The notes under the pieces were generated by a model. It did not search any database and was not told the DNA's origin. It saw only the letters and a list, made by a program, of their open reading frames with translations. Positions 12,608 through 41,218 of a stretch of DNA of 64,000 bases are shown here, piece by piece (the stretch's first letter is position 1; every line of letters begins with the position of its first letter). Source of the DNA: Eutreptiella sp. 'Long Island Sound 2002' (lineage: Eukaryota > Euglenozoa > Euglenophyceae > Eutreptiales > Eutreptiaceae); contig OZ038385.1 of the NCBI GenBank assembly GCA_964036045.1, forward strand, positions 59,181,919-59,245,918. The letters are read 5' to 3'. The position numbers were made by a program, and so were the translations under genes.

Positions 12608-12613
12608 TCAGAA
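12608..12613 (-). promoter_or_regulatory. Putative UGA-CGG stop-codon readthrough site between gag and pol
   Basis: Gag ends GCG GAG TTC TGA CGG GGA and the next codons run straight into pol in the same frame. UGA followed by CGG is a known leaky stop context in some plant and animal RNA viruses. Pol has no ATG of its own nearby. I could not fold the downstream sequence to look for the stimulatory structure that usually accompanies this motif. Confidence 0.65.
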
Positions 12614-15109: not shown

Positions 15110-15189
15110 CTTAATCCACCCTTCTGCTTATGTTTGCCTGCTCGGAGCACTGGTTGTACGGCGCGGGGTCGCTGCCGGTGCACAGAGAC

Positions 15190-16028: not shown

Positions 16029-19000
16029 GCATCAGTGATTAGAATCATCTCGCCGTAGCGTTGGGGTACTCCAAGTACTAGGCATTCTCGGATTTTCTTC
16101 TTGACATCTTCGATTGCTTGCTTTTCAATAGGTCCCCAGCGCCGCTGAGTCTCCTTCCTGATGAGATCCGTTAGTGGTGCGCTGGCTTCCGTGAAATTTC
16201 GGAGATGCCGCCTGTAAAAAATAAAGGATCCGATGAATTGTCGAATTTTCTGAACTCTATCAGCTTTAGACATAGAATCCGTTAGGTCGAAGTCCATCAG
16301 GGCCTTCATCTTTTGATCCTGCGGTTTCCACCATCCATCTCCGATGTGGAATCCGAGGTAGTCTGTTTCCGTCTTGAGAAATTCGCATTTTTCCAGCTTG
16401 ATGCGGAGGTGATTTTCTTGACAGACGGTGTAGAATTCTCGGAGTAGTAGGAGATGGTCATCGATGGTGTTTCGTTTCCAGGATGACATCTTCGATGTGA
16501 GCCTCCAGGACAGCACCACGCTGTAGGAGCTCTTGGACGGCCGGTCGTCGTTTACACAGGGCGATGATTTGATTCATCAGCTCCTGGAACAACGCCGGGG
16601 CGTTAGCAATACCCAATGGCATTACCCGCCATTTGTAGACCCGTCCATCCGGAGCAATGAATGCTGTTAGATCTTGGGCTTGCTCCGTTAGGTCAACTTG
16701 CCAGAAACCGGACCGCTTGTCCATTTTAGTTTTGTATCTGCATCCAGCAGCGGTTTCCACGGTATTCTCCAACAGGGGCAGCGAACCGCTGTGCAGTTTT
16801 ATTTTCTGGTTCACCTTTTTGTAGTCGACCACCAATCTTTTTGCAGTGCTTCCTGGTTTAGGTACCAGGAAGCATGGACTTCAATGCTTAGGATAGTCCG
16901 TCTTTTTGTACTTGTAGACCAAACCGGCCTCCACGCATTCTTTGATTTGGCGAGTAATCTCAGCAATGTCATCTTTTGATGCTGGGTACGGTCGACATCG
17001 AACTCGATCTGTGAGAAATTCTTCTCTTAGTTCTAGGTCCATGGTCACGAGTTTCTTCAGCGATCCGGGTGGAGGTAACGGACCAAAAATGTCTGAGAAA
17101 TGCAGGATGATTTTCTTGATCCTCTTGTCCACATCCATTTTGTCGAGCGAAATCTTGAGGTCTTCAGATGCGTGCAGATTGGCCGCACCTAATTCTTGTT
17201 TCTTAGGTTTTTCATCTTGCTCCGTCAATTTCTTGAGGGCTAGGACCTGTTCGGGGTCCCAAATCATCTGATTCTCTTGGTGATCAATTTTCTTCTTTTC
17301 TTTGACTTTCTTTCTTAGCCTCTTGATGTCTTTCCGGCGTAATTGATCTTTTCTTTCTTCTTTGTTTTCTTCTTCTCCTTCGATTTCTTGTTCTTCTTGT
17401 TCCAATGCTTCGTGTAGTTCGTGAAGCATGACCAATTCTTCGCCAACATCGAAATACGTCCCATCTTCTCCGTCGTACTCATCGAGGTAGACCATGCTTT
17501 TCCATTCTTCTTTTAGCTCCAGTTTTTGGAGTCTGTCAATTTGATTTAGTAGAAGGAGACGAGTTTCTTCCAAATCTTCCTTCAAAGAAGGGAACGAATT
17601 TTTACTCGGGCGTGCGTGTAGGAGACGGAGTTCACGTTCGTCTCCTTCGCTCGTCATCGATTCAAGTGGGACAGAAACGTGTGAAAGAAGTTCTTCGGGG
17701 TTAGGAGTTTCGGAAGGGGTCGAAGGAGCCTCTAGAGGTTCTACGTCTTCCAAGAACAGGTTGGCGACCAAGTCGGTGTAGTCCATAGTGGTGTAGGAGT
17801 TGTTCGAAAAGGGTATAGTCCACTCGGAAGGAGCTTCGGATATACTTCCGCTTTCGTCGGAGGTTTCTTCGCTCTCTTCTTGCGTTTCTCTTGCCTCTTT
17901 CGGACTTTCTTGAACCACTTCTTCGACTTGAAACTCAGGCGTCTCGAACTTGTACTCTTCCTTGCTCTCGTCCACGTCCGGAAGCTTTTTCATCATCTCT
18001 TCTTTTCCGTACCCACGGTGGTGCTTTAGCACGAACTTCTTTATCTCCCCAGACAGGTTTTCCATGGGGTTAGAGGACACGTTCTTCCCCGAGACTAGGT
18101 ACATAGCGGTTCGCCAACGGGGCCTTGGCAAAACCTCTTCTTTTGGGTTAAGTCGGTAAAGAGGAACGTCAGGTAAGAGCAACTTTGTCACCGTCAACTT
18201 TTCGAGTACAGGCCCCCATAGCTTTTCTTTTTCTTCCCACTTCTTCCCTTCGGGAATAACCAAAGCGACCGTAGCTTGGTCCACGTAGACTTTCACCAAC
18301 GTGTGGAGTATTTTTGAGAAAGGGGGGTTCGCGTAGAGCATCTTCCAAGCTCTCAACTTTCCCCAGTCATACCACCACGTGTTGTTGGTTTTGGGAGTAC
18401 AAAAGTACTCTGCGTCGGCGTTCTCTTTGGACGCAAAGAGTTCAACAAAGTCGCTGTTACATGTGTTCGGGTTAAGGTTAAGTTCTCGAAACACGTCACC
18501 CTTGGCGGCGGAGTCGAGAGTGTAGTTCTCCGTTCGGTGTAGGCTCAAGGTAGCGAGGATACTCTCTTGCTTCACCTGGCTATCGAGTGCCAACAGAAAA
18601 CTCTTGAGAGTCTTGAGCGTAGGTCTTGGACACTTTGTCTCCTTGAGGGGTATTGCTTCCCATTCTTGCTCTTCGTTCACAACCAACAAGTGAGTGGGTT
18701 CTTGAAGCGATAAATATTTTATCCACTCATTTTGCGCAAAGAAGTCCGTCCCCAATACGGCTTCAAAGGCGTCGGTGTCGAACGCTTGAAACTTTTGAAG
18801 TACTTTTCGGTCTCCCACTTGTACTTCTCCTTCTATCTCGCCTTCGGTGAGAGTGACTCCCCCTTCTCCCGTTTTTACCCCACAAATATTTTTGGGAACT
18901 AGGTCCTCGTAGTGTACAAACCTAGAGGAGACTAGGGAGATTGTAGCGCCGGTATCAAGGTATGCATCCACCCATACACCATTGATAGCGACCCTCAATA

Positions 19001-19033
19001 GGTAGCAATACCTCGGTGAGTCTCGGTGTCCAC
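16024..19033 (-). pseudogene. Family-2 gypsy pol, protease to reverse transcriptase (damaged)
   Basis: This is the N-terminal half of the outer element's pol. It begins with RVAINGVWVDAYLDTGAT (protease), then a domain with VELFAS and YANPPFSKIL, a long Glu/Lys-rich linker, and RT with LVPKPGS, KMDKRSGFWQ, MPLGIANAPALFQ and LGFHIGDGWW. It is broken by a TGA at 16881-16883 (the second copy has TGC there) and by a 1-nt frameshift near 16500. The first Asp of the RT catalytic pair reads Glu (HIEDV). The frame is cut at TDAS by the nested element and resumes at 4583. Pol is in the -1 frame relative to gag and has no ATG at its start. Confidence 0.88.
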
Positions 19034-20886
19034 CTAGGCTTCCCCCGGAGTTTGACCCGCGAGAAAGTCCTTGAGGTTCTTAGCTTGCCTTTCGAGCTTG
19101 AGAACTCTGTTTTGCTTCTTTTTGCGCTCTCCTTCCGTCAACTGTTCCAAGCGTTTCTTCTCTTGAGGCTTTCCTTTGTCGTCGTCTTTTCCTTTGCCTC
19201 CTTTTCCTTCGTCCGCCTTTCCTCCGTTCGCTTTTCCTCCACTTCCTTTTTCTCCTCCTTTCGCTTGGTCCTTTCTGCCTTTGCCTTGACCTTTCTTCGT
19301 TTGCTTTTGATCTTCTTTCCTCGCGTCAAGCCTCTCTTGCCACGCCTTGTCTCTTACGTTGTGTTTTGTCCCACAATTGGGGCAAAACACGGTGGTGAAG
19401 AACGTGGGCGTGGTGGAGTTGTCCTCCGCGACTTCCCTTCGCCAATACCATTGCCCTTGGCCTTGTCCTTTGCCTCGTCCACCTTTTCCACGGCCGCGAC
19501 CACCACCACCACGGTTGCCGTTGCCTTGTCCTCGTGCTTGTTGGAAGGATACGAAGCACTCCTCACATAGCGAGTGGGCAAAGGCTTCTTCTTGGTTCAT
19601 AGGGGCGTTGGAGTGGGCGTTGGTGTTGCCGTCTAGCCACTTGAGTTGCGCCATCGAGTGCAAGTTCTTCAAAGTAGCGTCCGACTTTCTTTGGAGGGCC
19701 AACTTGTAGAGAAGGTCAACGAGAGAGTTGAAAGTGTGTATTCTAGACAACGTCTCGGGAGTAGCACATATTTCGTCCATGGTTTTGGGCGGAACACGAG
19801 GTAGGAGGTGTAGGAGGGCTTTGGAGTCGTCGTAGTAAGATGTAGCCAATTGGTCCGTAAGCGTAGTAAACGTTTTGACGTATTGGGCTATGTCCGCGGT
19901 TGTCGGGTATTCCTTCAACCGAGGGATACACTCTATCTCTTGAATAAGCTCTAGGTCGGTAACGTAAGTGGGGTAGAGCTTTTCGAGCGTGATAAGGAAC
20001 CTTACCCAAGAGTCACTTTTATTGAGTGCCCCTGAAACCACTTCCTTTACGTCCTTGTTATCACAACCGTTGATAACAACTTCCGCTTTGGCTATTGCGT
20101 TGAGGTCTTCTTGTTCCGTCGAGCTCAAGAACCCCAAAAACATCTTTGGCGTGAACGTCGAGGTCTCTACCCGAAAACTTGGGTAGTTTCGTTTCGGTTT
20201 GGGGTTTGAAAAAAGCTTTGATTCCTCTACCGGTATGTGGCACACCTTGTGTGGGGTCGGGGAGTAGCGCCATAGGCGCTAGTGGACCGAGTCCTAGGGC
20301 GAGGGCTTGGTCGAGGGTGTAAACTTCGTAGGTAGTGGTAAAGCATGCAACCGGTTTGGGTGCTTTGGTACGGGGTACAAAGGGCGACTTGACTCCAGGA
20401 GGCACACCGGCAAGCCGGGTGCACACTCGGGTTAGAGGAGAGGGGTGGTAAGGTACACAAGGGTTAGTGGTTAAGTTAGCACTAGTGCTATTTTCTAAGT
20501 TTTCAAGACGACCCTTGAGTTGTTGCAACGTCGACAAAAGGATAGTGCTCTCTTCCGAAGAAGGAGAGGCTTCGAAAACATGAGGCCTTTTGGGAGCGTG
20601 AGGCTCAGAGAAAAACTTAGGCTCAGGAACTCCGGTAGGCACTCCATGCACAATAGGTTCTCCATGTATAGGGGGTTGAGGCATAGTGGCGTAAGTCACA
20701 TTAGAACGCCATGGCACGGATTGAAAGAAAAGTCGAAGACAATGTGGTCCCCGACTCATGAGTCTGTGGGGCATTGGTGAATGAACCTTCATGGTGTTCG
20801 ATTTCTTGAACCATTTGTTGCAACCGACCACTCTGGTTGAGCAACGATAGGACTTCCATAGCTTTTGCTAGTTCAGCTGTCGTCAT
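19034..20886 (-). pseudogene. Family-2 gypsy Gag, frameshifted copy
   Basis: Starts MTTAELAKAMEVLSLL at 20886 and aligns along its length with the intact gag at 23956-25809. A 1-nt insertion near 20140 (five As then C, where the other copy has six As) and small changes near 20720 break the frame. The C-terminal part has FCPNCGTKH (a reduced zinc knuckle without the usual last Cys), an upstream CEEC pair, and a Gly/Lys/Gln-rich tail ending TPGEA. Confidence 0.85.
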
Positions 20887-21254: not shown

Positions 21255-21505
21255 GTCAGATTTTGGCGGCCTCCTCAACAACAGCAAAGTAATGGGGTCA
21301 TAGAATTGTAGTCTTCCAGCTTAGTCCATCGCAAAAAGGGACTATGAACCACAATCACTATTTACACTCATGTTCACTCCTTACCTCTCTTCCACTCTCA
21401 CCATACGAATATCCCTCGTGTAGTAAAATACACCTAGTTAGGACTTACCTAGGAAGCACCACGTGCTCCCTGGTGTCGCCGCCAGGCGCCTCTCCTCTAT
21501 CTATC
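21255..21505 (-). repeat. Partial family-2 5' LTR, first copy
   Basis: The LTR segment adjoining the primer site. It stops abruptly at 21505, where reverse-transcriptase sequence begins, because of the 4.92-kb tandem duplication. The same LTR sequence continues without interruption past 26427 in the second copy. Confidence 0.7.
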
Positions 21506-23955
21506 CTGGAACAACGCCGGGGCGTTAGCAATACCAAATGGCATTACCCGCCATTTGTAGACCCGTCCATCCGGAGCAATGAATGCTGTTAGATCTTGGG
21601 CTCGCTCCGTTAGGTCAATTTGCCAGAAACCGGACCGCTTGTCCATTTTAGTTTTGTATCTGCATCCAGCAGCGGTTTCCACGGTATTCCCCAACAGGGG
21701 CAGCGAACCACTGTGCAGTTTTATTTTCTGGTTGACCTTTTTGTAGTCGACCACCAATCTTTTTGCAGTGCTCCCTGGTTTAGCTACCAGGAAGCATGAA
21801 CTGCAATGCTTAGGATAGTCCATCTTTTTGTACTTGTAGACCAAACCGGCCTCCACGCATTCTTTGATTTGGCGAGTAATCTCAGCCCTGTCATCTTTTG
21901 ATGCTGGGTACGGTCGACATCGAACTCGATCTGTGAGAAATTCCTCTCTTAGTTCTAGGTCCATGGTCACGAGTTTCTTCAGCGATCCGGGTGGAGGTAA
22001 CGGACCAAAAATGTCTGAGAAATGCAGGATGATTTTCTTGATCCTCTTGTCCACATCCATTTTGTCGAGCGAAATCTTGAGGTCTTCAGATGCGTGCAGA
22101 TTGGACGCACCTAATTCTTGTTTCTTAGATTTTTCATCTTGCTCCGTCAATTTCTTGAGGGCTAGGACCTGTTCGGGGTCCCAAATCATCTGATTCTCTT
22201 GGTGATCAATTTTCTTCTTTTCTTTGACTTTCTTTCTTAGCCTCTTGATGTCTTTCCGGCGTAATTGATCTTTTCTTTCTTCTTTCTTTTCTTCTTCTCC
22301 TTCGATTTCTTGTTCTTCTTGTTCCAATGCTTCGTGTAGTTCGTGAAGCATGACCAATTCTTCGCCGACATCGAAATACGTCCCATCTTCTCCGTCGTAC
22401 TCGTCTAGGTAGACCATGCTTTTCCATTCTTCTTTTAGCTCCAGTTTTTGGAGTCTGTCAATTTGATTTAGTAGAAGGAGAAGAGTTTCTTCCAAATCTT
22501 CTTTTGAAGAAGGGAACAAATTTTTACTCGGGCGTGCGTGTAGGAGAGGGAGTTCACGTTCGTCTCCTTCGCTCGTCATCAATTCAAGTGGGACGGAAAC
22601 GTGTGAAAGAAGTTTTTCGGGGTTAGGAGTTTCGGAAGGGGTTGAAGGAGCCTCTAGAGGTTCTACTTCTTCCAAGAACAGGTTGGCCACCAAGTCGTCG
22701 TAGTCCATTGTGGTGTAGGAGTCGTTCGAAAAGGGTATAGTCCACTCAGAAGGAGCTTCGGATATACTTCCGCTTTCGTCGGAGGTTTCTTCGCTCTCTT
22801 CTTGAGTTTCTCTTGCCTCTTTCGGACTTTCTTGAACCACTTCTTCGACTTGAAACTTAGGCGTCTCGAACTTGTACTCTTCCTTGCTCTCAACCACGTC
22901 CGGAAGCTTTTTCATCATCTCTTCTTTTCCGTACCCACGGTGGTGCTTTAGCACGAACTTCTTTATCTCCTCAGACACGTTTTCCATGGGGTTAGAGGAC
23001 ACGTTCTTCCCCGAGACTAGGTACATAGCGTTTCGCCAACGGAGCCTTGGCAAAACCTCTTCTTTTGGGTTAAGTCGGTAAAGAGGAACGTCAGGTAAGA
23101 GCAACTTTGTCACCGTCAACTTTTCGAGTACAGGCCCCCATAGCTTTTCTTTTTCTTCGCACTTCTTCCCTTCGGGAATAACCAAAGCGACCGTAGCTTG
23201 GTCCACGTAGACTTTCACCAACGTGTGGAGTATTTTTGAGAAAGGGGGGTTCGCGTAGAGCATCTTCCAAGCTCCCAACTTTCCCCAGTCATACCACCAC
23301 CTGTTCGTGGTTTTGGGAGTACAAAAGTACTGCGCGTTGGCGTTCTCTTTGGACGCAAAGAGTTCGACAAAGTCGCCGTTACACGTGTTCGGGTTAAGGC
23401 CAAGTTCTCGAAACACGTCACCCTTGGCGGCGGAGTCGAGAGTGTAGTTCTCCGTTCGGTGTAGGCTCAAGGTAGCGAGGATACTCTCTTGCTTCACCTG
23501 GCTATCGAGTGCCAACGGAAAACTCTTGAGTGTCTTGAGCGTAGGTCTTGGACACTTTGTCTCCTTGAGGGGTATTGCCTCCCATTCTTGCTCTTCGTTC
23601 ACAACCAACAAGTGAGTGGGTTCTTGAAGGGATGAATATTTTCTCCACTCATTTTGCGCAAAGAAGTCCGTCCGCAATACGGCTTCAAAGGCGTCGGTGT
23701 CGAACGCTTGAAACTTTTGAAGTACTTTTCGGTCTCCCACTTGTACTTCTCCTTCTATCTCGCCTTCGGTGAGAGTGACTCCCCCTTCTCCTGTTTTTAC
23801 CCCACAAATATTTTTGGGAACTAGGTCCTCGTAGTGTACGAACCTAGAGGAGACTAGGGAGATTGTAGCGCCGGTATCAAGGTATGCGTCCACCCATACA
23901 CCATTGATAGCGACCCTCAATAGGTAGCAATACCTCGGTGAGTCTCGGTGTCCAC
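21506..23955 (-). CDS. Family-2 gypsy pol, truncated but open copy
   Basis: A frame of about 800 codons covering protease (DTGAT), the VELFAS/NPPF domain, the charged linker and the first part of RT (FLVAKPGS, KMDKRSGFWQ, MPFGIANAPALFQ). It runs into LTR sequence at the duplication junction, so it lacks the RT catalytic Asp pair, RNase H and integrase. Unlike the first copy it keeps the Cys codon where the other has TGA. The frame is -1 relative to gag and is open back through the gag stop, with no ATG near its start. Confidence 0.85.
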
Positions 23956-25809
23956 CTAGGCTTCCCCCGGAGTTTGATTCGCGAGAACGTCCTTGAGGTT
24001 CTTAGCTTGCCTTTCGAGCTTGAGAACTCTGTTTTGCTTCTTTTCGCGCTCTCCTTCCGTCAACTGTTCCAAGCGTTTCTTCTCTTGAGGCTTTCCTTTG
24101 TCGTCGTCTTTTCCTTTGCCTCCTTTTCCTTGGTTCGCCTTTCCTCCGTTCGCTTTTCCTCCACTTCCTTTTTCTCCTCCTATCGCTTGGTCCTTTCCCC
24201 CTTTGCCTTGACCTTTCTTCGTTTGCTTTTGATCTTCTTTCCTCGCGTCAAGGCTCTCTTGCCACGCCTTGTCTCTTACGTTGTGTTTTGTCCCACAATT
24301 GGGGCAAAACATGGTGGCGAAGAACGTGGGCGTGGTGGAGTTGTCCTCCTCGACTTCCCTTCGCCAATAACATTGCCCTTGGCCTTGTCCTTTGCCTCGT
24401 CCACCTTTTCCACCGCAGCGACCACCACCACCACGGTTGCCGTTGCCTTGTCCTCGTGCTTGTTGGAAAGATACGAAGCACTCCTCACATAGCAAGTGGG
24501 CAAAGGCTTCTTCTTTGTTCATAGGCGCGTTGGAGTCGGCGTTGATGTTGCCGTCTAGCCACTTGAGTTGCGCCATCGAGTGCAAGTTCTTCAAAGTAGC
24601 GTCCGACTTTCTTTGGAGGGCCAACTTGTAGAGAAGGTCAACGAGAGAGTTGAAAGTGTGTATTCTAGACAACCTCTCGGGAATAGCACATATTTCGTCC
24701 ATGGTTTTGGGCGGAACACGGAGTAGGAGGTGTAGGAGGGCTTTGGAGTCGTCGTAGTAAGACGTAGCCAATTGGTCCGTAAGCGTAGTAAACTTTGGGA
24801 CGTATTGGGCTATGTCCGCGGTTGTCGGGTATTCCTTCAACCGAGGGATACGCTCTATCTCTTGAATAAGCTCTAGGTTGGTAACGTAAGTGGGGTAGAG
24901 CTTTTCGAGGGTGATAAGGAACCTTACCCAAGAGTCACTTTTCTTGAGTGCCCCCGAAACCACTTCCTTTACGTCCTTGTTATCACAACCGTTGATAACA
25001 ACTTCCGCTTTGGCTCTTTCGTTGAGGTCTTCGTGTCCCGTCGAGCTCAAGAACCCCAAAAAATCTTCGGCGTGAACGTCGAGGTCTCTACCCGAAAACT
25101 TGGGTAGTTTGGTTTCGGTTTGGGGTTTGAAAAAAGCTTTGATTCCTCTACCGGTATGTGGCACACCTTGTGTGGGGTCGGGGAGTAGCGCCATAGGCGC
25201 TAGTGGACCGAGTTCTAGGGCGAGGGCTTGGTCGAGGGTGTAAACTTCGTAGGTAGTGGGAAAGCACGCAACGGGTTTGAGTGCTTTGGTACGGGGTACA
25301 AAGGGCGACTTGACTCCAGGAGGCACACCGGCAAGCCGGGTGCACACTCGGGTTAGAGGAGAGGGGTGGTAAGGTACACAAGGGTCAGTGGTTAAGTTAG
25401 CACTAGTCCTATTTTCTAAGTTTTCAAGACGACCCTTGAGTTGTTGCAACGTCGACAAAAGGATAGTGCTCTCTTCCGAAGAAGGAGAGGCTTCGAAAAC
25501 ATGAGGCCTTTTGGGAGCGTGAGGCTCAGAGAAAAACTTAGGCTCAGGAACTCCGGTAGGCACTCCATGCACAATAGGTTCTCCATGGATAGGGGGTTGA
25601 GGCATAGTGGCGTAAGTCACATTAGAACGCCATGGCACGGATTGAAAAGGATTAGTCGAAGACGATGTGGTCCCCGACTCATGAGCCTGTGGGGAATTGG
25701 TGAATGAACCTTCATGGTGTTCGATTTCTTGAACCATTTGTTGCAACCGACCACTCTGGTTGAGCAACGATAGGACTTCCATAGCTTTCGCTAGTTCAGC
25801 TGTCGTCAT
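23956..25809 (-). CDS. Family-2 gypsy Gag, intact copy
   Basis: 617 codons, MTTAELAKAMEVLSLL to TPGEA. The capsid-like region begins at about residue 230 (KLPKFSGRDLDVHAEDF) and runs to about 420. It is followed by CEEC, a Gly/Arg/Gln-rich stretch, FCPNCGTKH and a Lys/Gly-rich basic tail. The stop is TAG. Just before it the run G GGG GAA offers a spot where a tRNA could slip by -1 into the pol frame, since GGG re-pairs with GGG. This is the undamaged partner of the gag at 19034-20886. Confidence 0.88.
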   Translation of the reverse strand: MTTAELAKAMEVLSLLNQSGRLQQMVQEIEHHEGSFTNSPQAHESGTTSSSTNPFQSVPWRSNVTYATMPQPPIHGEPIVHGVPTGVPEPKFFSEPHAPKRPHVFEASPSSEESTILLSTLQQLKGRLENLENRTSANLTTDPCVPYHPSPLTRVCTRLAGVPPGVKSPFVPRTKALKPVACFPTTYEVYTLDQALALELGPLAPMALLPDPTQGVPHTGRGIKAFFKPQTETKLPKFSGRDLDVHAEDFLGFLSSTGHEDLNERAKAEVVINGCDNKDVKEVVSGALKKSDSWVRFLITLEKLYPTYVTNLELIQEIERIPRLKEYPTTADIAQYVPKFTTLTDQLATSYYDDSKALLHLLLRVPPKTMDEICAIPERLSRIHTFNSLVDLLYKLALQRKSDATLKNLHSMAQLKWLDGNINADSNAPMNKEEAFAHLLCEECFVSFQQARGQGNGNRGGGGRCGGKGGRGKGQGQGQCYWRREVEEDNSTTPTFFATMFCPNCGTKHNVRDKAWQESLDARKEDQKQTKKGQGKGGKDQAIGGEKGSGGKANGGKANQGKGGKGKDDDKGKPQEKKRLEQLTEGEREKKQNRVLKLERQAKNLKDVLANQTPGEA

Positions 25810-26427
25810 GTTACTCGCTGAAGGCTCTGGACGTGGGGCTACAGCTTCAGCATGCTCAGGACATGTAGGCGCAGGAAAACGATAGGCTTCGAATCAAGAT
25901 CCGTCAAGAGGTACTTCTGGGGTTCCAAACCCGGCCATGGTAGGCGCGACTAGTTCCTCATCGGAGACAGGTATCAAGACTTGCACGTCGTTTTCAGAAG
26001 CGCCCGTAGCTTCTAGGCTGCTTGGAGTTGTCACAGGGTCCATCTCAATTCTTCAGACTCGATTTTCTGAGTTCAGGAATTCTTCTCCGTCCCTTACTAA
26101 ATTTCAAGGCTGAAATTGAATCGAAATTAAATCCAAGGGATACTGGATTTAGGCAGAGCAGGGTTTCTCTGCTACCAGTCAGATTTGGCACCCTCCTCAA
26201 CAACAGCAAAGTAATGGGCTCATAGAATTGTAGTCTTCCAGCTTAGTCCATAGCAAAAAGGGACTATGAAACACAATCACTATTTACACTCATGTTCACT
26301 CCTTACCTCTCTTCCACTCTCACCATACAAATATCTCTCGTGTAGTAAAATACACCTAGTTAGGACTTACCTAGGAAGCACCACGTGCTCCCTGGTGTCG
26401 CCGCCAGGCGCCTCTCCTCTATCTATC
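25810..26427 (-). repeat. Family-2 leader, primer site (26167-26177) and LTR start, second copy
   Basis: Leader at 25810-26166, primer site TGGTAGCAGAG at 26167-26177 on the minus strand, and LTR from 26178. The LTR continues to the right past 26427, but I cannot place its outer end because the matching 3' LTR is not in the window. Confidence 0.65.
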
Positions 26428-32567: not shown

Positions 32568-34632
32568 TCAAGGGGGGGTGCCTTGCAACAACACCCATTT
32601 TCCCTTTGGCCCATATTCCTCCAAGGGAGGCAATGCTTGGTACCACAACACCCCTTCAAAATTCAGGACATATTCACCCTTGTGGGTGCCCGTGTGGTAA
32701 AATTTTGAAAAACCGCCAATCTCCCACCCCACTTCGCGGCCGTAATCCAATGCAATGCACAACTTGAGTTTTTTCAAGTTGTGCATTGCCATGTCCTCGG
32801 GGGGTTGGGGGAGGATCGCAGCCCATGCGGGGTTCACGAAATGCCCTTGTTGGCCAACATTCACGGGCCCGAGCACCTCCGAACCATCTGATGCCCCATC
32901 CGAATCAACCTCATCCACCTCATTCTCATCATCACCGCCTTCCTCGTCATTTGCATCATCATCTTCCTCTTCATCTTCCTCCTCTTCATCTTCCTCCTCC
33001 GAATCACTTTCAGATGGAACATCACCACCATCATCCAAGCTGAAAGTGTACTCCTTTTCCAAACCTTGGAGCTTAATGTCCTTTTGGTTGGAGAGGTCTT
33101 TTGCCAAGCCTGAACCAGTTTTCAGGGCCAACCTGTCAAAATCCATCTTTGCACACACGTGGTCCCAAGCATTGCCCAACCACTTTGTCAACAAAATCTT
33201 TTTTTTTTGAAACAGGGACTTGTCGATTCACTATACGATAATTGTTATCCTCCTCCTCCAACCACTCATCATATGCCCAGTGCATGTGATTGTTACACAT
33301 TCTTCCCACCCCTGCATCAGTCACAGCAATCTCATCAGTGCATTGTGCTGGTTCTAAGTGCTGCTTTGTGTTGCACTTACGCCGCAGGAGGCGCCTGAAT
33401 CGTGCAGTGGTCTGTGCTGACAAGTTGTCGGAAAACAAGCAAACCTCCTCTCGTTGGTTGATGGACTGCAAGAACGGCTTGAAAACCCGCAGGACCCACT
33501 CACATGCAATTTCTTCATTGACCCATGCCTTTTTCTGTCAAAACACTACAACTCTGTTGTCATACTGATGAGTCTCTACTTTAGGGATTCTTTGCCCAGT
33601 GCCCTTGAACACAATCCCTACCTTTGGCTGCACGCCCCCTTTGGGAATGAATCTGCAACAAAGCTGCAGGCTGCAGTCCTTCTTAACATCAGTTCCACTG
33701 TTGGGGGGCAACCTGACCCGTGGACCATCCTCCTGACAGTGCAATGTGACAGGGTCTTTATTTCCAAAATAGCAGGGCACTTGGTCCACATCATACCTGT
33801 GGCTGAGGGGCCATCGACCGAAAATGGGGCACAACTGCTTACCCCTGGCCAATCGTTTCACGAGGCGGACGTGCCACCTCTTGATTTTTGGAAGGCGGTC
33901 AGACAAAGGCTTCCTACTGTTAATTTTGCGACGCAAGGAAATGCTCCACCGCCAGCAAAATTTGAACCTCCAGGAAAGGGTGGATTACCAATTCTTTGCT
34001 GCATCGTCACCATGCTCCTTACTGATCAATTTTTTCATGTGTATCCGGATCCATTTCGTAGTCACCCTCAAACCCTTAGCCCTTTTTGTGCGGATATCAG
34101 TGTACAGTTGTTTTTCCAAAAGGGGATATTTACCTAGTCTTGGCTTCACAATGCAACTGATCCGCTTCCTGGCTGCCCCACCCTTTTTCAGGGCCTCTTC
34201 CAATTGCCTCTCCTTTGCACCCCACTTAGAAACAAAACTCTGTGATATGTTAAACACATCCGCAACTGTTTGCTGTGGGCTGTCCAGTTCCTTCAACCTC
34301 TTGAGTTCCTCCATGCCGCGCAACTTATTGACAACCCGAAGCTTAAACTTCAGCTTATATACTGTCCTGACTGGCATCCCCTTGTTTGCCTGGCGCCCTT
34401 TACCCTTGCCTTTGGTTGCCGGCATTGATGAGGAGGAGGAAGAGGCTGGCATTGATGAGGAGGAGGAAGAGGCTGGCATGGATGAGGAAGAGGAAGAGGC
34501 GTCCTGAAGGACTTGAGGTTCCTCCACAGCCTGATGTTCCTCCAAAGCACAGGGGGCAGGAGGTACGGCTCCAGTGAACTTGAAGAAAGGGGTCAAAGGT
34601 GTCGTCTTCTTACGCAGCACAAGTAGACGCAA
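32568..34632 (-). pseudogene. Decayed pogo/Tigger-like (CENP-B type) DDE transposase
   Basis: Read from 34632 on the minus strand: three SSSSSSMPA repeats; a Psq-type helix-turn-helix (KLRVVNKLRGMEEL ... FNISQSFVSKW); a CENP-B-type HTH (KYPLLEKQLYTDIRTKRAKG); then a DDE_1 core with YDVDQVP near 33790, LFSDNLSAQ near 33430 and TDAGVGR near 33310. A long acidic region and a C-terminal segment follow, ending at 32568. The frame is interrupted by TAA at 33985-33987 and TGA at 33538-33540, and by a frameshift in the run of As near 33200. Family members cut and paste short-TIR elements and duplicate TA. I did not locate the terminal repeats. Confidence 0.75.
34421..34501 (-). repeat. Three 27-bp tandem repeats in the transposase N-terminus
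   Basis: Units built on GGCATTGATGAGGAGGAGGA (plus strand) encode SSSSSSMPA three times on the minus strand. The third unit has two substitutions. Confidence 0.8.
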
Positions 34633-34659
34633 TCAGCAACACCATTCAGCAGGCCTCGT

Positions 34660-34762
34660 GCGCGACGGCTTCACCATTTAGCTTTGACGAGCGTAGCGCG
34701 ACGAAAGAACTCATCTCCTTAGCAACATAACAGTCCCCATGCGCAACGGCTTCACCATTTAG
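34660..34762. repeat. 81-bp tandem repeat; second copy split by the palindrome transposon
   Basis: Unit 1 is 34660-34740, starting GCGCGACGGCTTCACCATTT. Unit 2 starts at 34741 with GCGCAACGGCTTCACCATTT, is cut after TTTAG at 34762, and resumes at 41163 as CTCTCACGAG..., matching unit 1 at 32 of 38 positions up to ATCTCCT. This gives an independent proof of the transposon borders. Confidence 0.9.
34758..34762. other. Target-site duplication TTTAG, left
   Basis: TTTAG immediately outside the left terminal inverted repeat; its partner is at 41158-41162. Confidence 0.9.
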
Positions 34763-34791
34763 CTTAGGCGGCTCAAGTTGCATGGTCAAAA
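34763..34791 (+). repeat. Left terminal inverted repeat (29 bp)
   Basis: Perfect inverted match to 41129-41157. It starts CTTAGGCGGC and ends GGTCAAAA. Confidence 0.92.
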
Positions 34792-34958
34792 ACGAAGGAA
34801 AAGGTAGGAAAATGACAGGTTTCCAAAGGCATCGAAAAATAGTTGTTTTGGTGGATATTATAAAAGCGTCGCAAACAAGTATGGTGGATTAAATATTTCT
34901 ATAAGAATGATGTGTCCCATGGGCGAGACAGGGAAAAGTATTGCTTTGTGACTATTCT

Positions 34959-35264
34959 TTGCGCGAGGCCTCGCGCAACGACGTTCATTTGCGTCAGATT
35001 AATGTGCTACAGCACGACGCATTAGGCAGGTTGTCGAAAAATGGAACGCTGTCGTATTTATACACGTAACTTAGTAACATTATCAGGATTGCGTGATAGA
35101 GGTAGATCTATTAACGAATAAACTGCAACAATGGTGTACCGAATAATCTTGAAAAATATAAATGTTCCGGAACAAACTGCAGTTTCAAGCGCGAGGCCTC
35201 GCGCATGGAACGGCGCATGAAAAACATTAAAGTTTTGGTGATCATTGCGCGAGGCCTCGCGCAA
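34959..35264. promoter_or_regulatory. Left palindrome cluster (three copies)
   Basis: TTGCGCGAGGCCTCGCGCAA is perfect at 34959-34978 and 35245-35264. The 16-bp core GCGCGAGGCCTCGCGC is at 35189-35204 with altered outer bases. The cluster lies between the left inverted repeat and the 661-codon gene, where a promoter or transposase-binding subterminal region would be expected. Confidence 0.9.
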
Positions 35265-35650
35265 TGGAGGTCACAAGCGTTCATAAAAACCAAAATTGGA
35301 CAGATCCACCAGCTACACAGTATGTACGTTCCCTTGATGCGACGCTGCTGCATGGGCGCCCATACAGGTCCCGCCGGCATCTCCGGTTTTCATACTGTGG
35401 TCACCACTGACTTCACTGCCCAACAGCGATGGTAGCGCGCCGCAACTGGGTACCACAATCAGGATTAACTAGTGAAATGTGGGATCACCGGACAGTTACA
35501 GGTAACCGAAAATGGTGCATGCGACAAGCGAATCACAGAATAATCGGTCGCGCGAAAACTGAGTGACAGGTTGATGTTTCAAAGCAAGAAAATTTTTCAA
35601 ACAGCGATTTTTACGCAGATACAGTTACGCAATTATTCTTTACAGCAACA

Positions 35651-37636
35651 ATGCCCCTGCGAAAAGAGGTGGACGTCGAGAAGACAGTGGCCGCAGCATC
35701 CGGAGTTTTCCGCGATGTCTGCTCAGAGGAACCGCCGTACCACACGGCAGAAGAACTGTGGGAAGGGCTAAAACAGGGGGACGAGGGCGCGCGATTGTTG
35801 TTTGTGTGTTTTCTGCGTCTGCGCAAAAATGAACGGACGCGTTGCAGCGTTGAAAAGGCGATTGCGGCAGAAGGGAAGAGATGGGTTGGTGTTTTGATAG
35901 AGGAGGCCTGGCGCCTCTATTTGCTGATGCGCCACCGCGCAGTTCCATACCAGGGAAAACCAAAGTCGGTTGTTGCGGTAGAGGGAAGTAGGGCGCAGCG
36001 TCGCATTTTAGCAAGGTCAGGTCTGGCGCGATACAGCGCACCTTCGCTGAAGGAGAAGGCCGCAGTCAGGTTACAGACTACATGGGACAAAATTTACCAA
36101 CAGTGGGTTGTGTTGTGGATGGACAACTGGTACAACAAACAGTTTACCACAAATCCCGACAAGAACGACAAAAGCCTGAACGCAACAGCGTTGGCTGTGT
36201 TGCTACTCAAGGATGCACCCCGCTACTGGCATGGTCATCCTAGCCTGGAAGACCTTGAACGGCGTGTTCCTATTGTTGCACGCATGCTGGGAAACACCGA
36301 GGGAAAGTTTGCACGTATCCTGCAGGACCTAGGATTCGCAAGCACGCGACCTGTTGTGCGAAACATTAGGGCACCACTTGACATTATTCGCCCTGTACCT
36401 GCCAAGAGACCACATTGGCGACCCCTCTGTCTAAGCAAAGAAAAGGTAAGCGGCAACGTATCGCTTCTTAACCTACTGCAATTTACTAGGGACTTGGCGC
36501 AGCACAGCCGACCAGTTGTCCCTGTCTTATGTGATGAAAACATCCATTACCGCATTTGTAAGATGATGTACGGTGAAAAAACAACGGGTTGGAACGTCCG
36601 GCTTTTTTTGCGTTCACACCCTATATTATATGGTTTCTGGCACGCGTACAAATTTTGCGTTACACAAACGTTTCGCTCATTTTGGCCGATTGTGACTTTT
36701 TTCCGTAAGGGTTTGTTGCGCAGCGGTGACACAGTCCCCTGTTTTCCCAAGCTGATCACAATGGAGATAACTGTTGGTGCACTGCTGTTGGGTATGGGCC
36801 CCCACATACGGCGCCTTAACCGAAAATGTCGTTCCCTTGAGCTGGCACGTCCTGCAAATCGGCGAAGTCGCCTCCGTTACGCTGTGTGTAAGGCCATGCA
36901 GGTTCTGTTAACACAATACTGTCCCATGTTACTGTACCTGGGACACCTCGTTAGGCAGTGCAATTGGGCTGGGGAGACGGCCAACACGGGTGTTTTTGCT
37001 TCTGAGGGATTGCAGATTGTTATGTGTCTGTTAGACCGTTTGAACATGGGGGACACACTTTTAAAATACGAACGCACTGTTGCAACTGCGCTATTGTGCC
37101 ACACTGCGTGGCACACAGCCATGCCTGGACAGGCTTTTGCCGAGGAATTTTGCGAAAGTCTGCTTTCCAGCCTTGTAACAAAGAAGGGCCAGAAGAGAGG
37201 TGCAGTAACCATTGAAGATGTTGACGATCTGTATCAGCTCATCACTATCCGCAAAGAAGGTCACAGGGTGAACGTCTGTAAAATCCCCAATTCCTTTGTC
37301 AATTCCGTGCGACAGCGGTTAACTGCTTACTTGAACGCAGAGCGTGTATATGTGCCTTGGGTTAGGTGGTGTGCTGAGCCTACTTGTGCAACTCAGGCGC
37401 ATTGGCCGCGCAGGGGTGTACCTAACTTTCCACCGTCTCTTCTAATTCCAAAGGGTTCTAACCACTACAAACAAGTCCTTGTGTCTGTGTTGTTGGTGCT
37501 AACGCACCAGGGGCCACTTAAGGCTGGTTTCAAGCGAAAACTGTCGGAGCTGATCCCCCAACGCAGTGTGTTGGAGGAACAGAGAGAGGCCGACACGCTG
37601 CGAAACGTTCGAAGAAGATTGGAGAACATGCAGTGA
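35651..37636 (+). CDS. Unrecognised 661-aa protein, candidate transposase
   Basis: A single uninterrupted frame from ATG at 35651 to TGA at 37634-37636. It is basic, with Lys/Arg-rich ends (AHWPRRGVPNF, RNVRRRLENMQ). A central block has VVPVLCDENIHYRICKMMYG, then WNVRLFLRSHPILYGFWHAYK, then later FAEEFCESLLSSL and TIEDVDDLY. The Asp in CDENIH, the His in WHAYK and the downstream acidic residues could form an RNase H-like active site, which would suit a DDE-type transposase, but I do not recognise the family. The KDZ superfamily is one candidate, yet the N-terminal CxC cysteine motif is missing. It is the only long intact frame in the transposon, which supports the transposase role. No palindrome lies within it. 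Confidence 0.6.
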   Translation: MPLRKEVDVEKTVAAASGVFRDVCSEEPPYHTAEELWEGLKQGDEGARLLFVCFLRLRKNERTRCSVEKAIAAEGKRWVGVLIEEAWRLYLLMRHRAVPYQGKPKSVVAVEGSRAQRRILARSGLARYSAPSLKEKAAVRLQTTWDKIYQQWVVLWMDNWYNKQFTTNPDKNDKSLNATALAVLLLKDAPRYWHGHPSLEDLERRVPIVARMLGNTEGKFARILQDLGFASTRPVVRNIRAPLDIIRPVPAKRPHWRPLCLSKEKVSGNVSLLNLLQFTRDLAQHSRPVVPVLCDENIHYRICKMMYGEKTTGWNVRLFLRSHPILYGFWHAYKFCVTQTFRSFWPIVTFFRKGLLRSGDTVPCFPKLITMEITVGALLLGMGPHIRRLNRKCRSLELARPANRRSRLRYAVCKAMQVLLTQYCPMLLYLGHLVRQCNWAGETANTGVFASEGLQIVMCLLDRLNMGDTLLKYERTVATALLCHTAWHTAMPGQAFAEEFCESLLSSLVTKKGQKRGAVTIEDVDDLYQLITIRKEGHRVNVCKIPNSFVNSVRQRLTAYLNAERVYVPWVRWCAEPTCATQAHWPRRGVPNFPPSLLIPKGSNHYKQVLVSVLLVLTHQGPLKAGFKRKLSELIPQRSVLEEQREADTLRNVRRRLENMQ

Positions 37637-37871
37637 TGCGCGAGGCCTCACGCAAACAGCATGAAACAACAGGTTAGTACACCCCCTCTCTTGCGCGAGG
37701 CCTCGCGCAAGGTTGTCAGTCAAAAACAGTGGCGTGCCCCTTCAGTTTTGCATTCTCAACCATACTGTACTCGTATTCGCTAAAAGCACCCCACATATGC
37801 ATTATCGACGACGATTTTACCCATTTTTAATGTTATGTTTCCTTCAATACAGGCTTTCTTCTTATCGCAGA
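37637..37871 (+). promoter_or_regulatory. Inter-gene region with two palindromes and a possible 5' UTR intron
   Basis: A palindrome with one mismatch (TCACGCAA arm) begins one base after the stop codon at 37637-37655. A perfect copy is at 37691-37710. GTTAGTAC at 37673 could be a splice donor, with acceptors at 37719 or just before the ATG (TTATCGCAG, ending 37870). If so, the second copy is also intronic, in the 5' UTR of the downstream gene. Confidence 0.5.
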
Positions 37872-38202
37872 ATGGCAAGCCCCGCCCAAAAAACAGCCGA
37901 GGAACGAGAAGATACCGACTATGACCCTGGGACCTCAGGATCGGAGGCTGGAACACCAAAGAAGGGGCGTAAGAAGAAGGAAACACCAGATCCTGGCTTA
38001 ACCTTGGGTACTGACATCGAGGACCACCTGAAGCCGGACGGGAGGCAGGTGGAGGTTGAGCTGGACAACGTGAGAATCGACCAGGAGAAGACAAAGGGGC
38101 AGATCAGACGGAGAGATGCGAAGTTACTGCAGAAGCGTATTGTGTCACTCGAAGCAGCACCGCCAACAGGCCCATTACACGTCGTTCTCTAGGAAGATAA
38201 TA

Positions 38203-38275
38203 GTATGTTACCAACCGATTTTTCGCTCTTCTCGTTGCGCGAGCCCTCGCGCAAAGACGTGTCTCATATTTGCAG
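38203..38275 (+). other. Intron 1 (73 nt) carrying a palindrome
   Basis: GTATGTTACC to ATATTTGCAG, phase 1. The palindrome at 38235-38254 has one altered central base (GAGCCC). It starts 32 nt from the donor and ends 21 nt before the acceptor end. Confidence 0.8.
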
Positions 38276-38637
38276 ATGGCGATTATTGGTGTGTATCTGG
38301 ACAGCACAGCGTGGAAGCGGTTGCGAAGATTCGGGAGAAGCGACGCACCGCGTGTCTGGATCTGCAGCAGTGGCATACTACATGCATCGCCGATATTCTA
38401 AAGCCTACGACACCGTGGGCCTTCCGTGCAAAGCTGGCGGGATAAGCACAAGGAAGCGCACAAGACGTTGAGCCAATTCCGCTGTATGAGGCAGCAGATA
38501 ACCTCATTCGATGTGTTGAAGATCAGCGGCGGCGAGGCCTACCTGACACGTACAACAATCTCAAGATCGCCATTGTGGATGCTGTGCAGATGAGTGCCCT
38601 GGTTCCAACCGCTGAACTGAAGCAGCCTGGTCAATTC

Positions 38638-38708
38638 GTATGTTCATTAATCGTTGTTTCGGCGCTCTTCGTTGCGCGAGGCCTCGCGCATAACGTTGTC
38701 ACTTTCAG
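38638..38708 (+). other. Intron 2 (71 nt) carrying a palindrome
   Basis: GTATGTTCAT to CACTTTCAG, phase 0. The palindrome at 38672-38691 is complete except for its last base. It starts 34 nt from the donor and ends 17 nt before the acceptor end. Confidence 0.85.
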
Positions 38709-39006
38709 GACAAAACGTATAAATTGTGGAAAGATTTTATGACGTTTGCCTACTATGCTGGTCCGGAAGCTGTGAAAGGTCTGCAGAAGTTCCACGACAA
38801 AGGAGAGAAAGTCACGAAGAACGCGCTGAAGAAACTGGACGGGATCCTGTTGCCGGAGTTCTACAACAAACTGGCAGAAGTGATGCAGGAAGAAAAAACA
38901 ACCCTTAAATCCTTGCAGAATTCGTTTGACGACATCATCCTTGAGCAGTGGGTCTCAATGCATCTGGACCACCCGCACAACGGCCAGTACGTTCGACCTG
39001 AGAAAG

Positions 39007-39080
39007 GTGTGTACCATCGACGCGACTTGGGTTCCATTTCTGCATCAGTGCGCCGCACTTTCTCCACTTCTGTTCTTTAG
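39007..39080 (+). other. Intron 3 (74 nt) without a palindrome
   Basis: GTGTGTACCA to GTTCTTTAG, phase 1. It has a clear pyrimidine tract and is the only intron of the gene lacking the palindrome. Confidence 0.8.
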
Positions 39081-39778
39081 CCAAAGACATGCGGACCGGC
39101 AAAGAGGTTGCTGCACTTGGAAGGCCTGCCCTGAAGGTGACTCTTGGTACATGGGGCTATTGGCGTGAGTCTGAAGGCAAAAGTCGCGGTCCATGGCCGG
39201 CATGGAAATCCATGATTCGCGCACCACTGTGGCAGGTGGCAGAGAAAGGCAAACCCGCCCCTCTGAAAATCCTCAACGTCCAAAAACTCCTGGGTCAAGA
39301 GCCTACCAAGAGCCGTGTGGTCCCCCCACCTGCTGGCGTTACTGGTGACTTCAAGACAGTGGAACAGCAGGATCCATCATTGAGTCAAACTATCACAGTT
39401 AAGGCGACCCGAATTGCAGCGTTGAACCACGAACCTCCGAAGCGGTTCATGGAGATTGACAAGAACCTGATTATCATCAACGGCGACATATTTGAACATC
39501 TTGCTCCTGAGACGATGTGCCCAGCCTGGCTGTATGAAGAGATGGCGTGTGCCGATACCCTTATCTGCGGCTCCAAAACTGTTGCTGAGAACATGTTCCA
39601 CGTGCTGGAAACGGAAACAGAGAGGCGTCTCAACGATGATTTCAACGCGCCGCGCATTGGCCACATGTTGCTTATTCCCATCTTCAGTTGGCCAGTCAAA
39701 CCGAAGCCTGCAGGGGATCTTACAACGTTTGACGTTCGCTGGTTGCTGATGGCGTCACCGGATAGCTGGTCGAGAAAG

Positions 39779-39845
39779 GTATAATTCCCTCATTACGTCC
39801 GCTCTTTGCGCGAGGCCTCGCGCAATAACTTCTCCCTCATTGCAG
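39779..39845 (+). other. Intron 4 (67 nt) carrying a palindrome
   Basis: GTATAATTCC to CTCATTGCAG, phase 0. A perfect 20-bp palindrome lies at 39806-39825, 27 nt from the donor and 20 nt before the acceptor end. Confidence 0.85.
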
Positions 39846-40680
39846 ATTCCGAATTATCTGACGTTTGGACCTCCTCAAGTAGAGGAGATGGATCCTGCTG
39901 AATTTGGCGGTCACCTTCCGATAACGACCGTTATGTGGTATTTCGACACTCACCTCTTTCACCTGAAGCAGGATAAGACCTTCAAGCCTGCGTTTGTGTT
40001 CATTGATCATCAGCCGGATCTGGTGTGCAAGATCGTGTCCGTCGAGCTGGATTCTCGCATGTACCTTCTTGGTGTTACCTCCGACAATCTCTCCGATTGG
40101 GTCAACAGGGTGCAGACTCAGTTGAACCATGTATTGACACAAGAGTCGAAACTGCACGCGTCTGGTGATTGGGACCAGCAAGCCAACTGGGCAAACCGTG
40201 GTATTCCCCTATGGGTTTGCGATGACAAGGTGGGTTATGAGGCGTTGTCGCTGAAGGAGGAAGAGACTGTTGAGAAAGGTCAAGCTGCAGAAGCACTGGC
40301 CCCTGCAAAGCGGAAGTCTACTGCTGGGGAACCAGCCCCCAAGAAGAAGAAGACTGCCTCCAAGCCTCAGGCAGCGAAGTCGGTTACCGGTGCAGAATCC
40401 GACGAGAGCGATGGGGATGAAGAGGAGGAGAGCGAGGAAGAAGAGGAGGAGGAAGCGCAGGTCTCCCAGGGCAAGGCAGCGAAGAAAGTGGCAGCGAAGC
40501 CGAGGTCCGAGGAAACTGGGGCCCGAGCTCCATTCAAGCAGCCAGCCCGTCAGTCCCAACCAAGAAGCGCGCCCGCAAAGCCACCTCCTAAGGGTAACAC
40601 GTCCGTTGCTAAGGCTATGGGTTCTAAGATGCAAACTGTCCCGAAGAAAAAGTAATTTCTTCGCTTGTTCTGATATATTA

Positions 40681-40809
40681 TGCGCGAGGGCTCGCGCTAT
40701 GCATTCCTCTTCGATGACCTTTATGCTGTCACCTTGTGCGGCACATTTTTCTCTGTGATGCATTTTATTGCGCTGTTGTGTATGTGTGTTTGCGCGAGGC
40801 CTCGCGCAA
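40681..40809. promoter_or_regulatory. Right palindrome cluster (two copies)
   Basis: A copy with a central and an outer mismatch (TGCGCGAGGGCTCGCGCT) is at 40681-40698 and a perfect 20-bp copy at 40790-40809. Both lie downstream of the five-exon gene, towards the right inverted repeat. Confidence 0.88.
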
Positions 40810-41128
40810 AGAAGTGGTACCAAAAAATGCTTCTTGTGGTGCTGCGTGCAACATGGTTTTCGAAAAATGGTTTTCCAAAAGATTGAAAGCTCACGGGTGT
40901 TTTTATTGCAAAGCATAAATGGTAGAAGAAACAAAAAGTTGTGGTTTTCCCAAAAAAGAAGTTCATTTTGGTGGAAATAAATCATTTTCCCGGGCAGTCG
41001 GTTTTGTTGAAAATAAAGGAAAATGGACCGGTTAATTGCTTTTCACGGGATTTTTGGTTCTTGCGTTTTACGTCCCCGCCAAAAGGACTATTTTTTCGCA
41101 GTGCCGTAGAGAGGCAGTCTTGGGCGCA

Positions 41129-41157
41129 TTTTGACCATGCAACTTGAGCCGCCTAAG
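41129..41157 (-). repeat. Right terminal inverted repeat (29 bp)
   Basis: Perfect inverted partner of 34763-34791, followed by the TTTAG duplication at 41158-41162. Confidence 0.92.
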
Positions 41158-41218
41158 TTTAGCTCTCACGAGACTAGTGCGACGAAAGAACGCATCTCCT
41201 CATGCACCACAGAATACC

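Follow-up and report, generated by a model that had tools for sequence, protein, structure and literature searches.

To our knowledge, self-marking by transposons and their resistance to silencing have been worked out in few systems, mostly in plants. In the maize element Spm/En, subterminal repeats that determine excision in cis are bound by the protein TnpA, which also acts as a suppressor and as a positive and negative regulator (PMC2613891). In Arabidopsis, the VANC21 motifs occur mainly in the non-coding DNA of VANDAL21 Mutator-like elements (MULEs), introns included (PMC5735166), and for algal transposons the authors of work on Ectocarpus proposed that ParB-like and methyltransferase proteins may bind to, and modify, the element that encodes them (PMC12477816). 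Here we analyze a stretch of 64,000 nucleotides from the euglenid Eutreptiella sp. 'Long Island Sound 2002' (contig OZ038385.1; hereafter the window), which contains a DNA transposon with a putative transposase gene (open reading frame 1, ORF1), a second gene (gene 2) and ten copies of a palindrome.

We regard these palindromes as a real and strongly conserved site system of a transposon superfamily, of an already known kind that combines a transposon, an accessory protein and a dispersed motif. In two families whose non-coding DNA is otherwise unalignable, one 16-bp dyad has retained the same arms, the same number of sites and much of the spacing. It would constitute a clean, testable self-marking code in a euglenid, carried by an element whose putative transposase family is unrecognized by Pfam. 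No description of the palindrome or of the element was found in the literature searched, with most subscription journals lying outside its coverage; in the kinetoplastids, a neighboring lineage, DNA transposons were first reported in 2021 (PMC8101967).

The transposon and its ten palindromes

The window copy serves as the reference and all coordinates are positions in the window (Table 1). The original prediction of a eukaryotic DNA transposon is borne out by perfect 29-bp terminal inverted repeats (TIRs), by a 5-bp target site duplication, TTTAG, on both flanks (34758-34762 and 41158-41162), and by further copies in the same genome, which we searched over 2.28 Gb in 2,205 contigs. The element ends read CTTAG. 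With up to three mismatches, the TIR has 1,941 + 1,892 matches in this genome and its control none. Fourteen other paired copies were picked by two exact inverted repeats in opposite orientation, and not by the palindrome; ten of them show an exact 5-bp duplication, two have one mismatch in it and two have inverted flanks. The duplication is also exact in all three gene-less elements and in the single copy of a sibling family (L057) that are described below. Among the copies, L037 and L038 each consist of two half-copies in palindromic arrangement with inverted genomic flanks, and may be genuine inverted duplications or else artefacts of the assembly.

Searched with up to three mismatches, the 20-mer TTGCGCGAGGCCTCGCGCAA matches the window ten times, always within 34959-40809 and inside the transposon, as had been claimed for it, while 100 shuffles give an expectation of 0. 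Each palindrome consists of 7-bp arms (GCGCGAG and CTCGCGC) around a 2-bp centre, together a 16-bp core; five sites are perfect and the others carry one to three mismatches (Table 1). Seven of the originally predicted starts are correct, and three (35189, 37637 and 40681) lie 1-2 bp off the actual ones (35187, 37636 and 40680). All ten sites are non-coding, an outcome with a chance probability of about 4e-6 given that non-coding DNA makes up 29% of the element. The earlier statement that coding sequence is free of sites holds except for a one-base overlap, the final base of the ORF1 stop being also the first base of the 37636 site. The sites are single and dispersed, without tandem arrays, and the introns of gene 2, which we placed by reading GT..AG borders by eye, hold four of the ten (one each in the putative 5' untranslated region (5'UTR) intron and in introns 1, 2 and 4). 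In the window element, its aligned copies and L057, the 2-bp centre varies and the arms hardly do; a GG centre lies behind gene 2 in both families (40680 in the window; 6730 and 4903 in L057). Among 157 sites taken with up to three mismatches and pooled over families, covariation within the dyad exceeds shuffles at pairs 10 and 11 from the centre (0.70 versus 0.52 and 0.49 versus 0.28), partly because the families were pooled. The core pairs are no higher than shuffles because they hardly vary, and pairs 12, 14 and 16 fall below the shuffle means.

Across the genome, there are 11,014 exact copies of the 16-bp core and 13,886 matches to the 20-mer with up to two mismatches, as opposed to 0 and 1 occurrences of the respective reversed controls. 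To sample their location, we took the 50 distinct exact 20-mers at the head of the list, which come from the first 26 Mb of contig C1, that is, from one end of one chromosome. All 39 sites read (11 were left unread) sit in element copies, 26 in the coding element and 13 in the gene-less element. As sampled, the palindrome is confined to this transposon superfamily, and because all 39 lie within its elements, the idea of a genome-wide motif unrelated to the transposon fails; the shuffles, the reversed controls and this sample rule out chance or a general genome motif. A viral origin was also rejected: the core 18-mer has one exact match in IMG/VR, in a phage-like contig and taken as chance, and six peptide patterns confirmed no relative of ORF1 in that database.

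Conservation across copies, families and gene-less elements

The window copy was aligned with 11 of the others, omitting L037 and L038 (inverted half-copies) and L040 (a 1.9-kb deletion derivative). In this 12-copy alignment, computed with exon borders at most 3 bases off those of Table 1, the palindromes differ from the consensus in 41 of 2,265 cells (1.8%), compared with 247 of 6,533 (3.8%) in non-coding DNA within 40 bp of them, 546 of 12,572 (4.3%) in non-coding DNA further off and 1,451 of 47,852 (3.0%) in coding DNA. When ten random non-coding 20-mers were drawn 2,000 times, no draw was as low as the palindromes (mean 4.3%, lowest 2.35%). Internal sites are conserved like terminal ones, with divergences of 0.5-3.4% and 1.3-2.7%, respectively. 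CpG dinucleotides change less in the palindromes (2.8%) than within 40 bp (5.5%), in further non-coding DNA (8.0%) or in coding DNA (5.2%); outside the palindromes, the excess of CpG change over that of other C and G consists of transitions, not transversions.

A protein 46% identical to ORF1 (P0073) marks the sibling family. Among 8,465 candidates in the genome, 68 matches to it were scored, of which 65 are free of stops, and the equal score of most of these matches suggests a young expansion. The single copy read, L057, measures 6,860 bp, has CTTAG ends and the duplication AGAGT, and can be aligned with the window element, on the plus strand, over 258 bp of ORF1 only (64%); its gene 2 is open once spliced, and gene 2 identity between the two families is 41%. 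L057 nonetheless carries ten sites. The 16-bp core is exact in eight of them and has the centre GG in the other two; seven of the ten take the form of the 22-mer AGTGCGCGAGGCCTCGCGCACT, which occurs 2,910 times in the genome (control 0). One site lies in each of introns 2, 3 and 4 (71-97 bp) and in the putative 5'UTR intron, and none in intron 1; intron 3 thus holds a palindrome in L057 and none in the window element. The cores of L057 lie 199, 424 and 610 bp from the left end and 346 and 505 bp from the right end, to be compared with the window distances in Table 1. A post hoc simulation with uniform placement puts this coincidence of spacing at about 3e-5.

Three further elements, L002 and L051 (1,709 bp each) and L017 (1,323 bp), have TIRs as in the window element and apparently carry no genes. 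Their longest stop-to-stop frames cover 122, 173 and 128 amino acids (aa), respectively, and tblastn searches with 214 collected proteins found no match in L002; L051 and L017 gave one marginal short match each, of 39 aa (E 7e-4) and 24 aa (E 4e-4), respectively. Since L051 is 94% identical to L002 from end to end and L017 can be aligned with portions of that family, they count as one gene-less lineage and not as three. Their matches to the window element (blastn, E <=0.05) all touch a palindrome or lie in the terminal 39 bp and, apart from matches that touch the palindrome, they share with the sibling only one or two of 20-24 bp. In this lineage, the sites are found at about 208 bp from one end and, measured from the opposite end, at about 377, 483 and 670 bp. 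On contig C1, the first 30 ends located by an exact inverted repeat, which belong to 26 elements, all carry two to three sites at near-fixed distances: 198-199, 425-427 and 483-485 bp at left ends and 349-351 and 457-459 bp at right ends of the coding type, and 357-387, 463-493 and 648-680 bp in the gene-less type, where the last site is missing in two ends. In L002 (2300-2358), one of the palindromes sits in the middle of a longer, imperfect inverted repeat that measures about 55 bp, as judged by eye.

Possible functions and candidate binders

Its retention in an unalignable relative and in gene-less elements makes the palindrome very probably a binding site, needed by the element for movement or activity. 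With a probability of roughly 0.55, we propose that the palindromes are the sites of a DNA-binding protein encoded by the element itself, likely by gene 2, the terminal sites serving mobility and the internal ones activity. The protein would bind as a dimer. The subterminal sites (left ~198 bp; right ~350 and 460-505 bp) would act together with the TIRs as cis-determinants of transposition, a role argued for by the similar end distances and by the presence of sites in gene-less elements. Through the internal sites, in the leader, introns and intergenic DNA, the binder would sit along the whole element and maintain transcription or open chromatin; the equal conservation of intron and intergenic sites argues for this second role. 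Such a two-gene system, made of a transposase and a site-binding accessory protein, would resemble TnpD and TnpA of Spm/En with a VANC-like spread into introns. TnpA is a known case that unites a role in mobility with a regulatory one. Like the window element, Spm/En has a transposase and a second gene, and a short, end-asymmetric motif near both ends; its non-autonomous elements move given the cis sequences (PMC2613891), and the gene-less elements here keep ends and sites. The two differ in their ends (CACTA in Spm/En) and in the length of the duplication (3 bp there, 5 bp here), and the euglenid site is a dispersed 16-bp dyad, found also in introns and with equal arms in two families.

Several points weigh against this proposal. 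Profile searches recognized no DNA-binding domain in gene 2 or ORF1, and the binding protein could instead be that of ORF1 or come from the host. Internal sites would be superfluous for a role at the ends only and gene-less elements need no transcription, so that two functions have to be assumed. The sibling evidence comes from one copy, L057, and the shared ancestry of the 12 copies makes their divergence test partly non-independent. Finally, CpGs in the palindromes still change mostly by transition (18 of 25), which means that any shielding from CpG mutation is incomplete.

An exclusively anti-silencing function, in which the accessory protein coats the non-coding DNA and blocks heterochromatin or methylation while the TIRs alone serve transposition, is possible though not probable. 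It would account for the restriction of the sites to non-coding DNA, introns and upstream regions included, which is the likeness to the VANC system, where the motif lies mainly in such DNA of its own family (PMC5735166). The similar conservation of internal and terminal sites and the low rate of CpG change in the palindromes also agree with it. The gene-less elements, by contrast, hold their sites at near-fixed distances from the ends, which fits mobility, and single palindromes at near-fixed places differ from the tandem arrays of VANDAL elements. Moreover, the arms are common to two families as distant in transposase and gene 2 as those compared here, with only the outer bases being family-specific (TT..AA or AGT..ACT), whereas VANC targets differ between families (PMC5735166), and anti-silencing itself is putative in the euglenid element.

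It is unlikely that the ORF1 transposase binds the palindromes and that their internal copies are relics of expansion or decoys that limit activity. This would explain why the subterminal positions are near-fixed in a given type and resemble one another across three lineages, but it leaves unexplained both the equal conservation of the intron sites and their occurrence in introns of two families. ORF1 has 90 relatives at E <=0.01, 88 of them from ENA contigs and two short ones from another source (P0082, 39%; P0090, 28%). Searched against Pfam, the window ORF1 has no match at E up to 1, and P0001, P0073, P0082 and P0090 at E up to 10 gave one chance-level match only (JAMP, 0.14); the ORF1 profile has no match in the PDB. 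Two residues, D158 and D295 in P0001 numbering, do not vary among nine sequences, and a later E is found again wherever the sequences extend that far (read by eye), a pattern compatible with a DDE transposase.

More doubtful is a partition system in the manner of ParB-parS, in which gene 2 would be a CTPase of the ParB type, loading at the palindromes and spreading as a clamp. In ParB, the ParB/Srx box forms the CTPase part, and a distinct helix-turn-helix (HTH) recognizes parS. The element shares with the bacterial system a 16-bp palindromic site and, in gene 2, a GQH box that resembles the ParB box. In the window copy, in-frame stops interrupt gene 2 in exons 1 and 2, both positions being read through in at least one other copy (P0102); the ParB-like part of gene 2 has 177 relatives at E <=0.1. 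A profile comparison with 119 YbdM-type ParB-like domains places the GQH box ITAWEDGDGSLYVLNGQHGTETCRKI in register on the DGFHR box IVVTHTDKNAMEIVDGFHRHEIGKG with a score of 22.0, equalled by 3 of 150 column shuffles; the reversed alignment reaches nearly as much (20.4, elsewhere), and ORF1 in the first run reached 20.4 over 8 columns. In the control with phage P1 ParB, 1 of 60 shuffles was as high. Residues 68-110 of the joined window exons, the GQH region (38276-38442, in exon 2), weakly match phrog_35935, an uncharacterized family of PHROGs (E 0.0077). PF02195 has no match in the joined exons or in the 27 members of an alignment (A4) of relatives and the window's own gene 2 pieces (HMMER, E up to 10, filters dropping most matches above 0.1), a negative that is not decisive, since the same model also misses P1 ParB, our yardstick; NCBIfam and the PDB gave nothing ParB-like. 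Two AlphaFold models of gene 2, the second one covering exons 4-5, are unusable, with predicted local distance difference test (pLDDT) values of 33 and 35, so that a ParB/Srx fold is neither shown nor excluded. Unlike the bacterial systems, the element has ten dispersed sites, resides in a eukaryote as a transposon and has no recognized HTH and no ParA, for which Pfam searches of the gene 2 exons and ORF1, the two genes recognized in it, were empty.

From the original prediction, the ParB/sulfiredoxin likeness thus stands at the level of the motif, the identity itself being not established. The idea of a protein-site system is sound, given the conservation, the sibling family, the sharing with gene-less elements and the end spacing. 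Among the three functions it envisaged (silencing escape, partition-like clustering of copies and synapsis of the ends), partition is the least supported, because no ParA is recognized, a separate HTH reads parS and the ParB identity is weak. No more credible is a centromere-like code in which a gene 2 clamp would load, spread, join the ends and avert silencing, with gene-less elements parasitizing it through their ends and sites. ParB-like and DNA methyltransferase accessory genes of transposons in brown, green and red algae (Sola1-1_Ec32) offer a further parallel, for these too are DNA transposons of algae whose accessory gene has been proposed to target the element that carries it (PMC12477816). 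They differ from the window element, where gene 2 lies on the transposase strand, its ParB likeness is at motif level and Pfam finds no methyltransferase domain in it (710 residues of the spliced sibling gene 2, low-complexity tail omitted). The part of the Ectocarpus report considered here mentions no site for those accessory genes (PMC12477816). If gene 2 were a distant relative of the algal ParB-methyltransferase proteins, the palindromes would be a candidate for the site at which it binds and modifies its own element. RNA hairpins governing splicing or processing of the transcripts are the least probable explanation: in six folded introns (the folded window introns being up to 3 bases too short or 1 base too long at their ends) each site forms a 7-9 bp stem with a 4-base loop, and intron 2 of L057 reaches z -2.8, but the other five folds are not clearly stabler than shuffles (z -0.15 to -1.8) and sites occur also in gene-less elements and far upstream in the leader.

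Feature coordinates and neighboring sequence

Table 1. Features of the window transposon, with palindrome mismatches counted against the 20-mer and distances measured from the element ends to the 16-bp core
Feature	Coordinates	Strand	Remarks
DNA transposon	34763..41157	+	6,395 bp; TIRs, target site duplication, further copies
Left TIR	34763..34791	+	29 bp; 100% complementary to right TIR
Palindrome 1	34959..34978		perfect; leader; 198 bp from left end
Palindrome 2	35187..35206		3 mismatches, 16-bp core perfect; leader; 426 bp from left end
Palindrome 3	35245..35264		perfect; leader; 484 bp from left end
ORF1, putative transposase	35651..37636	+	661 aa; open throughout
Palindrome 4	37636..37655		2 mismatches; directly 3' of ORF1 stop
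Gene 2 putative 5'UTR intron	37673..37852	+	GT..CAG, by eye; parallel stretch in sibling
Palindrome 5	37691..37710		perfect; gene 2 putative 5'UTR intron
Gene 2 exon 1	37872..38202	+	start codon 37872; in-frame stop near end in window copy
Gene 2 intron 1	38203..38275	+	by eye
Palindrome 6	38235..38254		1 mismatch; intron 1; centre CC not GC, CC in 12/12 aligned copies
Gene 2 exon 2	38276..38637	+	GQH (ParB-like) box; in-frame stop in window copy
Gene 2 intron 2	38638..38708	+	by eye
Palindrome 7	38672..38691		1 mismatch; gene 2 intron 2
Gene 2 exon 3	38709..39006	+	
Gene 2 intron 3	39007..39080	+	without palindrome
Gene 2 exon 4	39081..39778	+	
Gene 2 intron 4	39779..39845	+	by eye
Palindrome 8	39806..39825		perfect; gene 2 intron 4
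Gene 2 exon 5	39846..40655	+	acidic and lysine-rich tail at end
Palindrome 9	40680..40699		3 mismatches; centre GG; 460 bp from right end
Palindrome 10	40790..40809		perfect; 350 bp from right end
Right TIR	41129..41157	-	29 bp; 100% complementary to left TIR

The flanks of the element contain direct repeats, 34650-34689 with 34731-34770 (85%) and 34677-34719 with 41158-41200 (86%), which we interpret as a sequence duplicated into two units, with the element splitting the second at TTTAG. An empty-site reference thereby adjoins the element (34650-34770 and 41158-41200), as a short duplicated sequence with the insertion in its second unit. Next to the left end, a frame on the minus strand (33985-34632) resembles by eye an HTH of the CENP-B/pogo type, with a weak match to BrkDBD (E 0.11).

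Further away in the window, frames on the minus strand at 7679-15127, 16881-20867 and 21497-25893 look by eye like reverse transcriptase, RNase H and integrase and are read as Ty3-type retrotransposons. Between 46000 and 53000, the GC content rises to 61-78% over long frames, versus ~48-52% in most of the neighboring DNA. A mitochondrial ATP synthase beta fragment of this genome has its best matches in 6tdy/6tdu, with nine differences over 214 aligned residues, followed by 6f5d and 8ap6, which are structures from Euglena gracilis and trypanosomatids; taken with the plastid-type frames named next, it makes the host most likely a photosynthetic euglenid distinct from E. gracilis. Elsewhere in the assembly, frames for a plastid-type ATP synthase alpha subunit were noticed by eye on chromosome-scale contigs (L064, C17:30642600-30644300, and L066, C23) and are probably plastid DNA inserted in the nucleus, and a gene for a bacterial flagellar-type ATPase on contig C297 (L063, by eye) points to bacterial contigs in the assembly.

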